Assembly: GCA_021292105.1 (NCBI GenBank)
Contig: CM037871.1
Location: forward strand, 14,828,460 to 14,892,459
Origin: Anadara kagoshimensis
Taxonomy: Eukaryota > Mollusca > Bivalvia > Arcoida > Arcidae
Direction of reading: 5' to 3'
Length of the DNA: 64,000 nucleotides
Shown: one piece after another, positions 16,908-58,007 of the stretch
How the letters are laid out: every line of letters begins with the position of its first letter
How positions within the stretch are numbered: position 1 is the first letter of the stretch
Notes under the pieces: generated by a model
What the model saw: the letters and a program-made list of their open reading frames with translations, nothing else
Databases searched by the model: none
Told to the model about the DNA's origin: nothing
Translations under genes and position numbers: made by a program

Positions 16908-17033
16908 GTCATATACCATTTTTTAAATTTAATCAAAAACTACATTCAAAAAATGGTATTGTCCATGCCATATACCATTTTTTTTAATGTATTTTTTTTT
17001 ATTAAATTAAAAAAATAGTATATGACACACCTT
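16908..17033. repeat. Double hairpin element of the TGTCATATACCATTTTTT family
   Basis: GTCATATACCATTTTTTAAA and AAAAAAATAGTATATGACAC bracket two partial inverse blocks. Related single hairpins occur at 52567-52632 and 58426-58472, with more divergent ones near 57264-57350 and 56848-56919. Confidence 0.7.
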
Positions 17034-29263: not shown

Positions 29264-29330
29264 CATCCAAAACACTGTCCAGATGTACTATAAGTAACGG
29301 AGATTGAGGTGGGCTGCCGATTTGCCACCA

Positions 29331-30338
29331 GTGCTTAGTGTTAAATTTATAGTGCTTAGTGTTAAACTTATAGTGCTTAGTGTTAAACTTATAGTGCTTA
29401 GTGTTAAACTTAAAGTGCTTAGTGTTAAACTTAAAGTGCTTAGTGTTAAATTTATAGTGCTTAGTGTTAAATTTATAGTGCTTAGTGTTAAACTTAAAGT
29501 GCTAAGTGTTAAATTTATAGTGCTTAGTGTTAAACTTATAGTGCTTAGTGTTAAACTTATAGTGCTTAGTGTTAAACTTATAGTGCTTAGTGTTAAACTT
29601 ATAGTGCTTAGTGTTAAACTGATAGTGCTTAGTGTTAAACTGATAGTGCTTAGTGTTAAACTTATAGTGCTTAGTGTTAAACTTATAGTGCTTAGTGTTA
29701 AACTTATAGTGCTTAGTGTTAAACTGATAGTGCTTAGTGTTAAATTTATAGTGCTTAGTGTTAAACTTATAGTGCTTAGTGTTAAACTGATAGTGCTTAG
29801 TGTTAAACTGATAGTGCTTAGTGTTAAACTGATAGTGCTTAGTGTTAAACTTATAGTGCTTAGTGTTAAATTTATAGTGCTTAGTGTTAAACTTATAGTG
29901 CTTAGTGTTAAACTGATAGTGCTTAGTGTTAAATTTATAGTGCTTAGTGTTAAACTGATAGTGCTTAGTGTTAAACTGATAGTGCTTAGTGTTAAACTGA
30001 TAGTGCTTAGTGTTAAATTTATAGTGCTTAGTGTTAAACTGATAGTGCTTAGTGTTAAACTTATAGTGCTTAGTGTTAAACTTATAGTGCTTAGTGTTAA
30101 ATTTATAGTGCTTAGTGTTAAACTGATAGTGCTTATTGTTAAACTTATAGTGCTTAGTGTTAAACTGATAGTGCTTAGTGTTAAACTTATAGTGCTTAGT
30201 GTTAAACTTATAGTGCTTAGTGTTAAACTGATAGTGCTTAGTGTTAAACTGATAGTGCTTAGTGTTAAATTTATAGTGCTTAGTGTTAAATTTATAGTGC
30301 TTAGTGTTAAACTTATAGTGCTTAGTGTTAAACTTATA
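29331..30338. repeat. 21-bp minisatellite, 48 copies without a single indel
   Basis: The unit is GTGCTTAGTGTTAAA followed by TTTATA, CTTATA, CTGATA or CTTAAA. First-to-last unit spacing is 987 bp, exactly 47 periods. The unit equals the MITE-A right subterminal phrase GCTTAGTGTTAAACT. Because 21 is divisible by three, a 348-codon frame stays open over it (heptad VLSVKLI); this is an artefact of the array. Confidence 0.95.
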
Positions 30339-30834
30339 GTATATCTTTGACCGAAAAATTGTTTATGCCTAGCTATAATTGTATTTATTTTTTATTATTA
30401 TCTTTTTGGTTACCCATGTACGACCACCTCGTGTCACCAATTGCAATCAAACATTCATCATGCAGTCATTTAATAGATACAAGGCAATTAAATCAATTTC
30501 AGACCAATTCTGGACACGTTTTAAATGAAGCATTTATTTATTTACAAAATGTCTATTTTTTAAAATATTCTATTGATATAAAAGTTCATGAACTTATTTG
30601 CTTCATTTGAAAAAAAAGCCTTTTAAGATTTGAATACACTTTAAATTGAACTAATTCCGTATCAAAATGTTTATTTTTGATTCATTAATATACTATAACA
30701 CACTTGCATTCATTTCCAATTTCAAACTGTTTCTGTAATTATAACTTGCTGTCAATGTTATAGGTTTAACCTTGGATTTAAACATTTATTATTGTTTTGC
30801 TGTGCTACCTTAATCATATTGATAACGAGGTAAC

Positions 30835-38099: not shown

Positions 38100-38345
38100 G
38101 AGTGACAGAAATATACTATTGTCTAAATTTGCTGCTATTTAAATTTTTAATTTCCTTAAATCCTAAGGTATACGACCTAATACTCCTTTAGCTTAATTTG
38201 GTAAAAAATATTGTGGTGCTTTGGGCAACATTTTAACCTCTCAAAAAAAAATGTTGGTTTCTCAATTTTGGTTCAAGCACTACTGATGAGAAATCGTTTT
38301 CCGAAACGACCATCTAGTGCTGTAAATTAAAACTGGTGTAATATG
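38100..38345 (+). repeat. Hammerhead-bearing repeat, isolated unit
   Basis: GACAGAAATATACTATTGTC and CTAAATTTGCTGCTA through the ribozyme motif (38277-38320) to AAAACTGGTGTAATATG match the unit at 57040-57280 with many substitutions. It lies at the end of the 0.95 kb module array. Confidence 0.65.
38277..38320 (+). ncRNA. Type I hammerhead ribozyme motif, decayed copy
   Basis: Stem I GCACTA/TAGTGC pairs fully. CTGATGA at 38283-38289 and GAAA at 38303-38306 are intact. Stem II (GAAATCGTTTTCC) is weakened, and the stem III closing pair is lost because the cleavage triplet reads ATC instead of GTC. Probably inactive or slow. Confidence 0.6.
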
Positions 38346-38512
38346 TGATAAAATATTATTTTTAGAAAATTTTAATGAAATAAATACAAAACATATACTA
38401 AAAACATTCAAAAGTAGTACATGCCAGTATTTAAAAAAAGGAAGTTGGCTCAGAATAGCGATTGGCACCATAAAACATTTATATTTTTCATTATGTTAGA
38501 AGCATAAATAAA

Positions 38513-42194: not shown

Positions 42195-42245
42195 CAGAGA
42201 TTTCGAAACGGCCGTCTGGTGCTGTAAAAGTAACACTTGTATATA
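42195..42245 (+). repeat. 3' half of the hammerhead-bearing repeat
   Basis: TTTCGAAACGGCCGTCTGG followed by TGCTGTAAAAGTAACACTTG aligns with the right half of the ribozyme and its downstream flank. The 5' catalytic strand CTGATGA is not recognisable, so it cannot cleave alone. Confidence 0.5.
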
Positions 42246-42888
42246 ATGAACAACTTGCTTATTGCGAAAAATGTGATAACAGAACAAATAAGGACGAGTT
42301 GATTATAAAACTTTTTCGACCAAAGACAGAAGCCACATCAACTTATTTATACCTGAACTTTTTTGCTGGTGGTTGGTAAGCATGCGCATTTGAATCTTTG
42401 AAAAAAGCTGAAAATAAGGGTCTCTTGTAAGTCTCGTTGAAGATCCTTCATTTCGTACTCGGTAAAAATTGTTCGTTGTATTTCACGTTAGAGAATAAAC
42501 GTTCCCGACGGAACAAAATTGTCAGAACAAAACCTGTAGTACTCATAAGTTAAAACGCAATATAATAATATGCAAATAATTATTTTATTCATATAAACAT
42601 TATACAATTGCATGGTTTGAATGAAGAAATATAAAATACAAGCTTCATATGACAGCGTAGCTATAGGTCGCTCACAATCTCATGGCAAAGTGTTTATTGA
42701 CACAGACGAATCTAAACCACCCAAAAAGGACTGTGTTCAGATAAAATCACGCCTTTTCGCGCGTTTTTTGCCACTGTAAAATCCGTCATATAAAAACAGC
42801 CTGGTTATATACATTGCCATCAGATCGTGAATGACCTACATGCATTTCATATATAATTATAACATTAACAATAATAACATGATCTAGT

Positions 42889-47804: not shown

Positions 47805-49292
47805 CTATCCTTCTACGCTCACCATCGTAGAGTTTGACTGATGTGCAAGATTTGGCACTTGTGAACATGTGCTTAATAATCGGTCTAAATACGTGTTCGA
47901 ATTCACATGAATCTCCTTATCATCATCAGAAGTCAATGGCTCCTCGGTAATTATTCCGTTGTCCATACTTTCCCTTTTTCCCAACACTGTGTCATTTTTA
48001 GATGAAGTACCTATCTGGTAACGAGAACTGTTGGGTTCCGAATGTCTTTTCAAATTGAGTTTAATCCCTCTGATGTTTTGCATATCGTCAATATCAATAA
48101 CTGTCAACACAGCAGCGCTCATAGTCGCTATCATTCTACCATCTGGACCTTTTTCGAGTTTTGAAACCGTGTCCTTTTTAGACATAGAAAATGGATTCGG
48201 CGATTTTAAAAGTTCTTTCATTGCTTCCGAATAACAAAAACACTGACAAGCACCCGGTCCCTTTTTTTCTTCCACTTTTTTCAAGTTTATCGAAAGAGAG
48301 TTTTTCCTTACCGAACCAGCATTTGACATCCTCCTAGTTGAATTTATCGGTGAATTGCGTAGAGGCAAGAGTTTGTTATTATTTGGTCGGGAATCCGGAA
48401 GATCCCCAACCGATTTCCTCATCACCTTTCTAATTTCCTTGGGCCTCTTTTCTTTAAAAACAAATCTATTTGAATTTAGTTTTGGTTCCTCGGTTTTCCT
48501 GTATGAATATTCAACTGATTCTTCCATTATGTCAGGAAATGGTGAAATTCGAACCGAAGTCCTGGTGTGGGAATCACTCTCTACACTTGATTTATCTGAA
48601 TCAAAGTCATCTCCAAAAAATTTCTGACTTGCAAAACCACTATCAGCTGAATTACGATTCGAATTCAACTTCCGGAAACTCTCTGGGCTCGGAGGTGAGA
48701 TAATTCCTGTTTTCCTCCGTCGCCTTTCCTCCGATTTCTTACTAGGATCACTAATGCTCACCGAATGGCGCGGTCTAATGATTGGATTTACATCCAGTAA
48801 ATGTCCTTCTGTGCCATGATAAGTCATTTTTCTGTTATTTGACCGCAGAGTAAGCGGTGACAATTTTCTGTATGACTCCTTGGTTTCAGCAGAGTTTCTC
48901 ATTGAATGAATGTCCTCTTCTAAACTTTTCAATTTTTCAGAAGAAACACTTCGGCTAATATCGCGGCTATCACCAACAGACCAGTATTTTGTAAGTTGAA
49001 GACTCGGCAAGACCGGCAAAGAATTTCGCTGTCTGTTTATTTCTTTCATTTTTTCACTGTAGGCGAGCATGGATTGCTCCATTTCGCGTTTACTTTTATC
49101 TAAATTCCTCATCTCTTTTTTATGCGCACCTTCAATAACAGTCATGTCATTCCTGTATTGTTTATCAAAATTATTTTTCCTTGCTAAAGATTTGGGACTT
49201 GTTTCACTATGTAAACCAGCTACACTCGCATACGAGGTATACTCTGACCAAACTGAAGGCCGACTGATCCTAAATACCGCCTTATTCGGCAT
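47805..49292 (-). CDS. Uncharacterised 495-aa basic, Ser-rich, largely disordered protein (single coding exon)
   Basis: This is the only long open frame in the window not made of repeats. ATG is at 49292-49290, with an in-frame TGA just upstream (TGA TTG ATA GAT ATG); the stop is TAG at 47805-47807. I take the ATG rather than the TTG three codons earlier. Seen: a charged helical stretch at about residues 40-90, rich in Lys/Glu/Arg/Met and plausibly coiled coil; a shorter one at 118-144; a basic cluster RRRRK at 190-194 that could be a nuclear signal; many Arg-x-x-Ser sites (for example RPRHS, RRMSN, LKRHSEP) that would suit basophilic kinases or 14-3-3 proteins; three Cys at 349, 351 and 353; and a more hydrophobic, probably ordered block at about 387-404. 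No membrane segment, signal peptide or known catalytic motif is visible. I do not recognise the family and assign no function. An upstream 5' exon is proposed separately. Confidence is high that it codes, low on its role. Confidence 0.85.
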   Translation of the reverse strand: MPNKAVFRISRPSVWSEYTSYASVAGLHSETSPKSLARKNNFDKQYRNDMTVIEGAHKKEMRNLDKSKREMEQSMLAYSEKMKEINRQRNSLPVLPSLQLTKYWSVGDSRDISRSVSSEKLKSLEEDIHSMRNSAETKESYRKLSPLTLRSNNRKMTYHGTEGHLLDVNPIIRPRHSVSISDPSKKSEERRRRKTGIISPPSPESFRKLNSNRNSADSGFASQKFFGDDFDSDKSSVESDSHTRTSVRISPFPDIMEESVEYSYRKTEEPKLNSNRFVFKEKRPKEIRKVMRKSVGDLPDSRPNNNKLLPLRNSPINSTRRMSNAGSVRKNSLSINLKKVEEKKGPGACQCFCYSEAMKELLKSPNPFSMSKKDTVSKLEKGPDGRMIATMSAAVLTVIDIDDMQNIRGIKLNLKRHSEPNSSRYQIGTSSKNDTVLGKRESMDNGIITEEPLTSDDDKEIHVNSNTYLDRLLSTCSQVPNLAHQSNSTMVSVEG

Positions 49293-49358
49293 ATCTATCA
49301 ATCAAAAATTCTTGACCCTGCCCCTCAAATGTTGTCTTAAGACTTTGCTTGAATAGCT
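49293..49358 (-). other. 5' UTR part of exon 2, with splice acceptor at 49359-49360
   Basis: On the minus strand the sequence just before this segment is TTTGATTTTATTTGTAG, a T-rich tract ending in AG, which is a good 3' splice site. The exon would begin AGCTATTC at 49358 and run 66 nt to the ATG. The acceptor pairs naturally with the strong donor at 54568. No transcript evidence is available here. Confidence 0.55.
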
Positions 49359-52566: not shown

Positions 52567-52632
52567 TTAGAACTGTCATATACCATTTTTTGAATTTAAT
52601 AATAAAATACATTCAAAAAATGGTATATGACA
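52567..52632. repeat. 65-bp near-perfect hairpin (TGTCATATACCATT family)
   Basis: TGTCATATACCATTTTTTGA pairs with TCAAAAAATGGTATATGACA around a short AT loop. It begins only 8 bp after MITE-A copy 18. Confidence 0.85.
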
Positions 52633-55675: not shown

Positions 55676-56804
55676 TTCAGAAACGAACAAGTGTATTTTC
55701 TAAAACGAAACTACCCCAAATTAAAACGTTTTCAAGTTGCTTTAATTTATTAAATTTTCAAATTAAAATAAATAAATAAATAATAAAAAATAAATTCTGA
55801 TTGAAGAAAAGGGACTTATAACTTATAGTTTTAAAAAAAAATCATTTATAACATATTTGAATAATATTACCTCTTTTCTCGAAATATCGTAAAAATATGT
55901 CGGCAGTTACGAAATGATAAGTATTTTACTGTCGGTGACAAGATCTTAACTCATATATATATACACTGCCAATTCGCATCATCATTTATTTATAAATTTT
56001 TCGATCGTGCGATCGGAAGTGGGTACTATCGGAAGTGTTTTTTTAATGTTTATAGTAACTGAACACATTACTTCAATAATTAAATAACTAAAGGTTATTT
56101 AAATTGTTAGATTCCTTTATTTCAAGTATGTGTCGGAACTTTTCTAGTTTTAAATCTATGACGTCAATACACGATTAGGAACGATCGCCACAATAAGACA
56201 GACACACCTTTTTAAGAGATTCATAAGACTTGGAAGGATTAACAAATAAAGAAACACATACATTTGTACATAGTTGACTTTTAACAGATTCACCTTAACT
56301 TGTTGAAACCTTTGTTAAATTTGAGTCATTTTAAGTTAATTAAACTAATTACGTACTTGCGGTTAATTAAACTCGGGGCTCACTAATTGGAAACTTGTCC
56401 TATCTGTTTACAAGTTACATGTATAAATACATATTATCGCTTTCCTTTTACTGATTTATTGTCAAATAATGTGAAAATTGTGTTGGTTGTACTTGAAGTT
56501 TAGTTTTATTGAACTTTCGTTAGTGTTTGTGTGTGAAATGTATACATGTACCAAAACCTTTGTTCCGCCGAGGTCTTTGAGGACAAATATCAACTTTTGT
56601 TTGAGATATTATCAACTCATTTGAAAAATAAAATGGCAAAATTTCGACTTTTGTCCGAAACATTGTCAACTCGTTTCAATAAAACCGTAATAATCAGCTT
56701 ACGAATTATTTAAATTCTGAACATACCCCAAAAAATAAATTATACTCCCTCATGCAAATTTTCATATCCAAATTTGGCTCATTATTTTAAGTCCTTTGCT
56801 CCAA

Positions 56805-56848
56805 GCACTGCTGATGAGAAATTGTATTCCGAAACGGCCGTCTAGTGC
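56805..56848 (+). ncRNA. Type I hammerhead ribozyme motif, copy 1
   Basis: Stem I GCACTG/TAGTGC (six pairs counting a G-U); core CTGATGA at 56811-56817; stem II GAAATTGTATTCC with one A-C mismatch and loop TGT; GAAA at 56831-56834; a two-pair stem III (AC/GT) closed by GGCC; cleavage triplet GTC at 56840-56842. All strictly conserved core bases are present. A 72-bp insertion follows stem I, but the motif itself is complete. Confidence 0.75.
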
Positions 56849-56919
56849 ATGTATCGTATACAACTTTTTGTATTTAATCATAAAATGCATTTACAAAAAG
56901 TTGAATATTGTCTCATATA
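56848..56919. mobile_element. 72-bp hairpin element with 8-bp target duplication
   Basis: CAACTTTTTGTATTTAATCA pairs with the later GCATTTACAAAAAGTTG. GTCTAGTG stands at 56840-56847 and again at 56920-56927, an 8-bp target duplication that includes the ribozyme cleavage triplet. Confidence 0.7.
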
Positions 56920-57211
56920 GTCTAGTGTAATAAAATTAAAACTGGTATAATATGAAATTTAAACCAGTGAGCCTGTAACTCTGCTGGTGGCTGGTGCCCC
57001 AAAGACATAAAAACACCGAAGGCAATAACTGTGTATTATTGTCAGAAATATACAATTTCTAAATTTGCTACTAGTTACAAATTTAAAAATCCTAAAAAAC
57101 TAAGGTACACTAACTCATGCAAATTATTTCCCTTGCTTAATTTATTAAAATATGTTTTGGTCCTTTGGGTATCATTTCAACATTTCATTTTGTTTCATAA
57201 TTTTGGTCCAA

Positions 57212-57255
57212 GCACTGCTGATGAAGAATTGTATTCCGAAACGACCGTCTAGTGC
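57212..57255 (+). ncRNA. Type I hammerhead ribozyme motif, copy 2
   Basis: Stem I GCACTG/TAGTGC; core CTGATGA at 57218-57224; stem II AGAATTGTATTCC (four pairs, loop TGT, mismatch only at the core-side pair); GAAA at 57238-57241; stem III AC/GT with loop GACC; cleavage triplet GTC at 57247-57249. Copies 1 and 2 each carry a different single defect relative to a fully paired stem II. Confidence 0.75.
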
Positions 57256-57263
57256 TGTAAAAT

Positions 57264-57350
57264 TAAAACTGGTATAATACATTTGTATCTGATACCACTT
57301 TTTGAATCACGTTATTTTATAATTTAAAAGTGGTATATATATGACACATG
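57264..57350. repeat. Hairpin of the TATACCATTTTT family, diverged
   Basis: CTGATACCACTTTTTGAATC pairs with AATTTAAAAGTGGTATATAT. It abuts the 3' flank of hammerhead copy 2. Confidence 0.6.
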
Positions 57351-57647
57351 TATAACATATTATTGTTTGTGATTTGTTTAAGTGTTACAAAAATGTATGT
57401 ATAAATATTTTTATATTAAAAAATCACATATGATTCATAAAAAATCGATTATGATCTGATCATGATCAGCTTAATATAGATATATATATTGATTTATGAT
57501 ACTAAACATAGAATAAAGTAGTCTTTGTTGATATAGCTAAAGGTATACAACTGAATTTTTTTTAGATAGAGACTATCCGTAGTGGCAACACAAAATATTT
57601 GTAGTCATGTGTGTTGTGCAATATATAGAGTACAGTCATGTCGAAAG

Positions 57648-58007
57648 TTTAACACTAAGCTAGCGTATTGGTGTGACATGACTGTTTAACACTAAGCTAG
57701 CGTATTGGTGTGACATGACTGTTTAACACTAAGCTGGCGTATTGGTGTGACATGACTGTTTAACACTAAGCTGGCGTATTGGTGTGACATGACTGTTTAA
57801 CACTAAGCTGGCGTATTGGTGCGACATGACTGTTTAACACTAAGCTGGCGTATTGGTGTGACATGACTGTTTAACACTAAGCTAGCGTATTGGTGTGACA
57901 TGACTGTTTAACACTAAGCTGGCGTATTGGTGTGACATGACTGTTTAACACTAAGCTGGCGTATTGGTGTGACATGACTGTTTAACACTAAGCTGGCGTA
58001 TTGGTGT
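57648..58007. repeat. 37-bp minisatellite, 10 copies
   Basis: Unit TTTAACACTAAGCTGGCG + TATTGGTGTGACATGACTG. The first part is the MITE-A left subterminal phrase; GACATGACT is its outer terminus (AGTCATGTC) in inverse. Copies differ only at A/G in GCTAGCG/GCTGGCG and one T/C. Confidence 0.9.

Follow-up and report, generated by a model that had tools for sequence, protein, structure and literature searches.

A probable retrozyme family of Anadara kagoshimensis with insertions that end at a common site past the predicted hammerhead cut

The DNA analysed here, a 64-kb stretch of the Anadara kagoshimensis genome that is called the window in what follows, quite probably carries an old insertion of an animal non-LTR retrozyme, the RNA of which would be cut, circularised and copied from a fixed start by the enzyme of another element. 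Judged by its sequence, the retrozyme is a non-coding, non-autonomous retroelement, present in thousands of copies, and most of its insertions stop some 37 nt beyond the site where the hammerhead is expected to cut. A fixed copying start that is readable from genome sequence would make this return to DNA testable, since it would predict where insertions join the flanking DNA, which form the template has and by what searchable signature the partner element can be recognised. By which enzyme and with what priming animal retrozymes return to DNA is only proposed in the accessible text of the paper that describes them (Cervera and de la Pena 2020, PMC7229834).

Hammerhead ribozymes in the window

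Two type I hammerheads are located on the plus strand of the window, at positions 56805 to 56848 (HHR1) and 57212 to 57255 (HHR2). In both, the core (CTGATGA, GAAA and GTC) is kept and the 6-bp stem I is complete; as to the type, stem I is the open helix in these window motifs and stem III is not open. The two are held in a 54-nt direct repeat (56795-56848 and 57202-57255) with 93% identity and a spacing of 407 bp, which confirms from sequence the original prediction of two direct-repeat hammerheads with intact core and stem I, and cuts are expected where it had placed them, after 56842 and 57249. Each window copy has one A-C mismatch in stem II, at different places (GAAAT/ATTCC and AGAAT/ATTCC), and the proposal of a common source with a fully paired stem II is borne out by the stem II stretch GGAATTGTATTCC, which occurs in 79 of the 103 motifs of the loci examined; the palindromic helix III loop GGCC occurs in 90 of them.

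The suggested check with the covariance model RF00163 (Hammerhead_1) gave matches when short stretches were scanned, with 27.0 bits for HHR1 (E 2.9e-4) and 21.7 bits for HHR2 (E 0.0018), but all scores stayed below the curated cut-off of 34, including the 28.1 bits reached by a young motif of locus L013 within 91 bases. The refuting outcome named originally, a lack of covariance-model hits, therefore applies by half. The short-stretch scan that matched HHR1 gave no row for HHR2, which was matched in a separate short scan. At gathering level, Rfam gave zero matches to any family in the full 64-kb window; on the entire genome it returned nothing and its controls were equally silent, and the Hammerhead row was absent from scans of seven loci and of 811 bases of L013. 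For the seven loci and the 811 bases this absence is probably a filter effect, given the score of the same motif in the 91-base scan.

Fold prediction suggests that the hammerheads may act as dimers. For one young motif, the predicted active fold has -7.8 kcal/mol versus -12.3 for the best fold, and two young motifs are predicted to co-fold to an exact double hammerhead (-34.5). The dimer cleavage that was suggested originally is thus supported as a prediction for young copies, whereas the window's own decayed pair of HHR1 and HHR2 gives no double hammerhead in the co-fold prediction. In keeping with this prediction, the accessible text reports that axolotl retrozymes whose helix III is similar act as dimers; in axolotl HHR_Amex1, helix III is likewise a single base pair closed by a palindromic tetraloop (PMC7229834).

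Structure of the window insertion

When the 339-nt unit of L013 is compared by BLAST with the window and with L001, the whole insertion is placed at about 56710 to 57279 on the plus strand. With unit positions numbered from the base after the hammerhead cut, it consists of a 5'-truncated first unit (56710-56842; unit positions 158-249 and 292-339), an insert, one full unit of 327 bp that is 82.6% identical to the L013 unit (56923-57249), and a 3' tail equal to unit positions 1-30, where the family match stops (57250-57279). The insert, 71 bp without assigned strand directly after HHR1 (56849-56919), is imperfectly palindromic and MITE-like according to its inverted and direct repeats, and it is bracketed by two copies of GTCTAGTG (56841-56848 and 56920-56927), an apparent 8-bp duplication. 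Because of this insert beside HHR1, the hammerheads are 407 bp apart despite a unit of 327 bp; the spacing noted in the original prediction is true, but it does not give the length of the repeat. By these features the window copy is old and damaged. Locus L002, at a distance of 0.85 Mb within the same contig, is a segmental duplicate that contains the 71-bp insert as well, and stretches resembling the insert occur in the window at 16909-16963, 16978-17029 and 52576-52628 and also in several fetched loci.

Two further copies on the plus strand of the window are additional to the original prediction. The first, at 38103 to 38349, is a second 5'-truncated insertion with 78% identity and one hammerhead in which GTC is read as ATC, and its BLAST match ends at unit position 36. 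The second is a short fragment at about 42200 to 42249 that seems to begin inside the hammerhead; BLAST covers 42219-42243 and the remainder was added by eye.

Copies in the genome

The genome that was searched comprises 1.115 Gb in 36 contigs, and a similarity search with the window element gave at least 83 matches. An exact 32-nt motif occurs 3733 times versus 0 for the reversed pattern, and for the looser core CTGATGA-N8-20-GAAAC-N4-GTC there are 8841 occurrences versus 21 for its reverse; by these comparisons the abundance of hammerhead motifs is not due to chance. A 22-base segment spanning the cut has 4776 copies, with 0 for the reversed segment. Among the 100 matches listed for the looser core, the places appear by eye to belong to one family.

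The unit is 339 bp long in 23 of the 51 full units that were extracted, the remaining ones being 325-357 bp. It has 33% GC, and with a longest open frame of 49 aa in three joined units it is non-coding. The possibility that the element is itself a Penelope-like element was rejected for want of a long open frame; a frame with reverse transcriptase and GIY-YIG domains is absent from the unit. The original description as a retrozyme-like element is thus backed by the genome-wide copies, the tandem arrays, the unit size, the low GC content and the ribozyme.

Tandem arrays with 339-bp spacing are present on many contigs, with up to five or more hammerheads per array, and the majority of insertions are shorter than two units. 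Identity is 0.986 within arrays (31 unit pairs) versus 0.946 between arrays (1244 pairs), a mean that takes in old copies. In seven of the eight multi-unit arrays the units have at least two private columns in common, and those of L011 share none. The most uniform array, L029, has a within-array identity of 0.995 (10 pairs), which suggests that it was inserted recently. The second refuting outcome named originally was a core no better conserved than the rest of the repeat. Copies with the exact motif differ at 64 of 4726 ribozyme sites versus 1157 of 22835 sites elsewhere, and the 16 copies without it, at 75 of 896 versus 319 of 3817, have no such difference, the division by motif biasing both groups; even decay would be expected of single dead copies anyway.

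Ends of the insertions

Matches to one real unit were chained over 80 loci, namely L001-L030 (best similarity to the window) and L031-L080 (chosen for the exact motif, and covering 51 of the 100 places listed for it). This gave 98 distinct chains, 96 of them clear of locus edges. The 3' end falls at unit positions 35-41 in 66 of these 96 chains and at 25-45 in 76. In the exact-motif loci alone, which were picked independently of where chains end, 48 out of 59 chains stop within positions 25-45, 43 of them within 35-41. The 20 chains that end away from the common site appear by eye to be mostly broken, interrupted or old, a description that does not extend to each of them. A tail-anchored profile, based on the 54 of 66 insertions in which the anchor was present and leaving out the segmental duplicates L048, L051, L065 and L002, has identities to the unit of 0.91, 0.81 and 0.80 at positions 35-37 versus 0.52, 0.46 and 0.35 at positions 38-40.

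The 5' ends, on the other hand, are scattered, as is apparent from the lengths of the chromosome-1 insertions, which range from 91 to 465 plus one of 1704 nt (median 266.5, n=44). For this set, which includes L024 and neighbours without the exact motif, an end at 25-45 was required; L001 was additionally left out of the length and of the open-frame and composition analyses, and L005 and L010, which look like one duplicated insertion, were both counted. More than one turn (over 376 nt) is found in nine of the 44, and in six of 38 if exact-motif copies with their shorter measured ends are taken. Of the 49 chromosome-1 insertions in the chain list, 40 have a single hammerhead, and many are shorter than one unit.

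These ends bear on the possibility that the family is an ordinary satellite or tandem repeat with an inherited hammerhead, propagated through recombination of DNA and with no RNA stage. Tandem arrays do exist, and homogeneity within them can be obtained by DNA exchange. However, the copies are dispersed, mostly with one hammerhead and often with less than one unit, and a common 3' end together with scattered 5' ends is unexpected from recombination alone, which makes a satellite origin very improbable; a standing satellite was rejected on account of the mostly dispersed insertions. A retrozyme with an RNA stage remains the preferred reading.

LINEs and SINEs, too, usually combine a fixed 3' end with truncation at the 5' end, and this pattern could point to copying of the retrozyme by a LINE-type instead of a Penelope-like enzyme. 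Nevertheless, neither poly-A nor a simple-repeat tail is present at the 3' junctions listed, and the copying start would be internal and downstream of the hammerhead, like that of a Penelope-like element in the available description (PMC11167929); we consider a LINE-type enzyme rather unlikely. With respect to the target, the AT content is 70% in the 5' flanks and 68% in the 3' flanks versus 67.5% farther out, and there is some T excess immediately before the 5' end of the insertion. Target duplications, which according to the accessible text are longer than 4 bp in metazoan non-LTR retrozymes when present (PMC7229834), gave no signal here, at least 6 nt being shared in seven of 70 insertions versus 8.3% of permuted pairs. 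They were dropped as evidence, the single long match (L039) being located in a tandem repeat.

Stand-alone matches to unit positions 1-37 were considered as copies of pre-cut RNA, and this interpretation was dropped since the majority either begin elsewhere or are preceded by a hammerhead that is still recognisable or has decayed. The tail fragments beside a tRNA-like stretch in L019 and L028 are explained by a SINE-like insertion, at about 1842-2272, that interrupts a retrozyme; these two loci look like segmental duplicates. A literature search of titles and the beginnings of abstracts, supplements and most subscription papers being outside its scope, brought up no paper on a fixed 3' junction in retrozymes of animals.

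Template and copying

In the proposed life cycle, genomic copies would be transcribed, the hammerheads, probably paired as dimers, would cleave the RNA to give units about 339 nt long, and a host ligase would close these units into circles. The enzyme of another element, most likely a Penelope-like one, would start reverse transcription at a fixed place about 37 nt past the cut and copy the circle in part or for more than one turn, after which the product would be joined to DNA. The fixed 3' end, the scattered 5' ends and the insertions of more than one turn fit such internal-start copying on circular RNA. Since insertions read through the cut site, the template would have been uncut at the hammerhead, either as a closed circle or as longer uncut RNA.

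The latter form, uncut multimeric transcripts in place of circles, would serve for the read-through as well, and unprocessed RNA is described as the dominant substrate in vitro in the available text on a Penelope-like element (PMC11167929). The private variants of seven arrays fit one circle, although a homogeneous array, when transcribed, would give the same picture, and on balance multimers seem a rather unlikely template. One circular template would also explain the homogeneity of arrays simply; it may, however, come from the transcript of a homogeneous array or from later DNA exchange within arrays. A generalisation that we put forward tentatively, and to which we assign somewhat less than even probability, is that retrozymes in animals owe their copying to a Penelope-type enzyme, which would start on circular RNA at a fixed internal site a few tens of nucleotides past the cut, partial and repeated turns leading to truncated single copies and to arrays, respectively. 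If this is true, the junction rule would make it possible to find the partner enzyme through its matching tail.

Candidate partner elements

Penelope-like elements are regarded as strong candidates for the copying of retrozymes in the accessible text of PMC7229834, which leaves priming open. The present genome has one Penelope-like open reading frame, in locus L088, with RVT_1 and GIY-YIG domains, for which no link to the retrozyme was found, and 83 GIY-YIG matches genome-wide with E values up to 0.01. Paired-stem scans of the eight loci L081-L088 gave no hammerhead, and the control recovered the four known ones of L013. A loose core (CTGAAGA, GAAA, TA) has two matches in L085, at position 524 on the plus strand and in a mirror copy, beside the GIY-YIG of a Penelope-like element on each arm of an inverted pair. 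This stretch has a perfect 10-bp stem I without a stem II, and a related one occurs in L084; it may be a minimal ribozyme or a chance match. Since it is unlike the motif of the retrozyme, the partner is still one that we infer.

Two of the candidate loci were rejected: in L081 a reverse transcriptase was not detected beside GIY-YIG, and L087 (C22:286000-288200) has UvrC domains. The latter is located on a 728-kb contig, perhaps of bacterial origin, and the GIY-YIG match beside UvrC has one in-frame TGA. Inverted pairs of GIY-YIG matches 2-4 kb apart were observed at C3:1658447/1660515, C15:54986423/54989902 and C15:59520667/59523173.

Relation to known systems

In its sequence features, the present family matches the published animal non-LTR retrozymes, as far as the accessible text describes them (PMC7229834). 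These have type I hammerheads in short, low-GC, non-coding tandem repeats of about 150-450 bp, arranged as dimers to multimers, with unit lengths of 350-390 bp in mussel and of 331 and 353 bp in axolotl. Further marks of this class are expression as linear and circular RNA produced by self-cutting, and the presence in the same genome of Penelope-like elements that carry hammerheads. The family described here has type I hammerheads with an open stem I (the RF00163 matches being below cut-off), non-coding tandem repeats of 339 bp in dimers to multimers, and 33% GC. It may be a separate sequence family, and it differs in its fixed 3' junction, of which the accessible text makes no mention.

The available description of Poseidon of Anolis, a Penelope-like element (PMC11167929), also has a hammerhead near the copying start, a tandem arrangement and an internal start of reverse transcription with a short tail past the ribozyme, similar to the start that we infer for the retrozyme. 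In contrast to the retrozyme, which encodes nothing, Penelope-like elements encode a reverse transcriptase and a GIY-YIG endonuclease. In plant LTR retrozymes, hammerheads likewise bound a non-coding unit, but according to the accessible texts they are of type III and are accompanied by LTRs, a primer binding site, a polypurine tract and 4-bp target duplications (PMC7761336; PMC7229834). A plant-type LTR retrozyme was rejected because the hammerhead is of type I, not type III.

Other sequences in the window

A 498-aa open frame on the minus strand (47808-49301) gave zero Pfam matches above the curated cut-off, the best being SOAR with E 0.03. The window further contains two satellite-like arrays, one at 29330-30340 with 48 copies of a 21-bp unit and one at 57647-58007, 370 bp from the retrozyme, with about 10 copies of a 37-bp unit.
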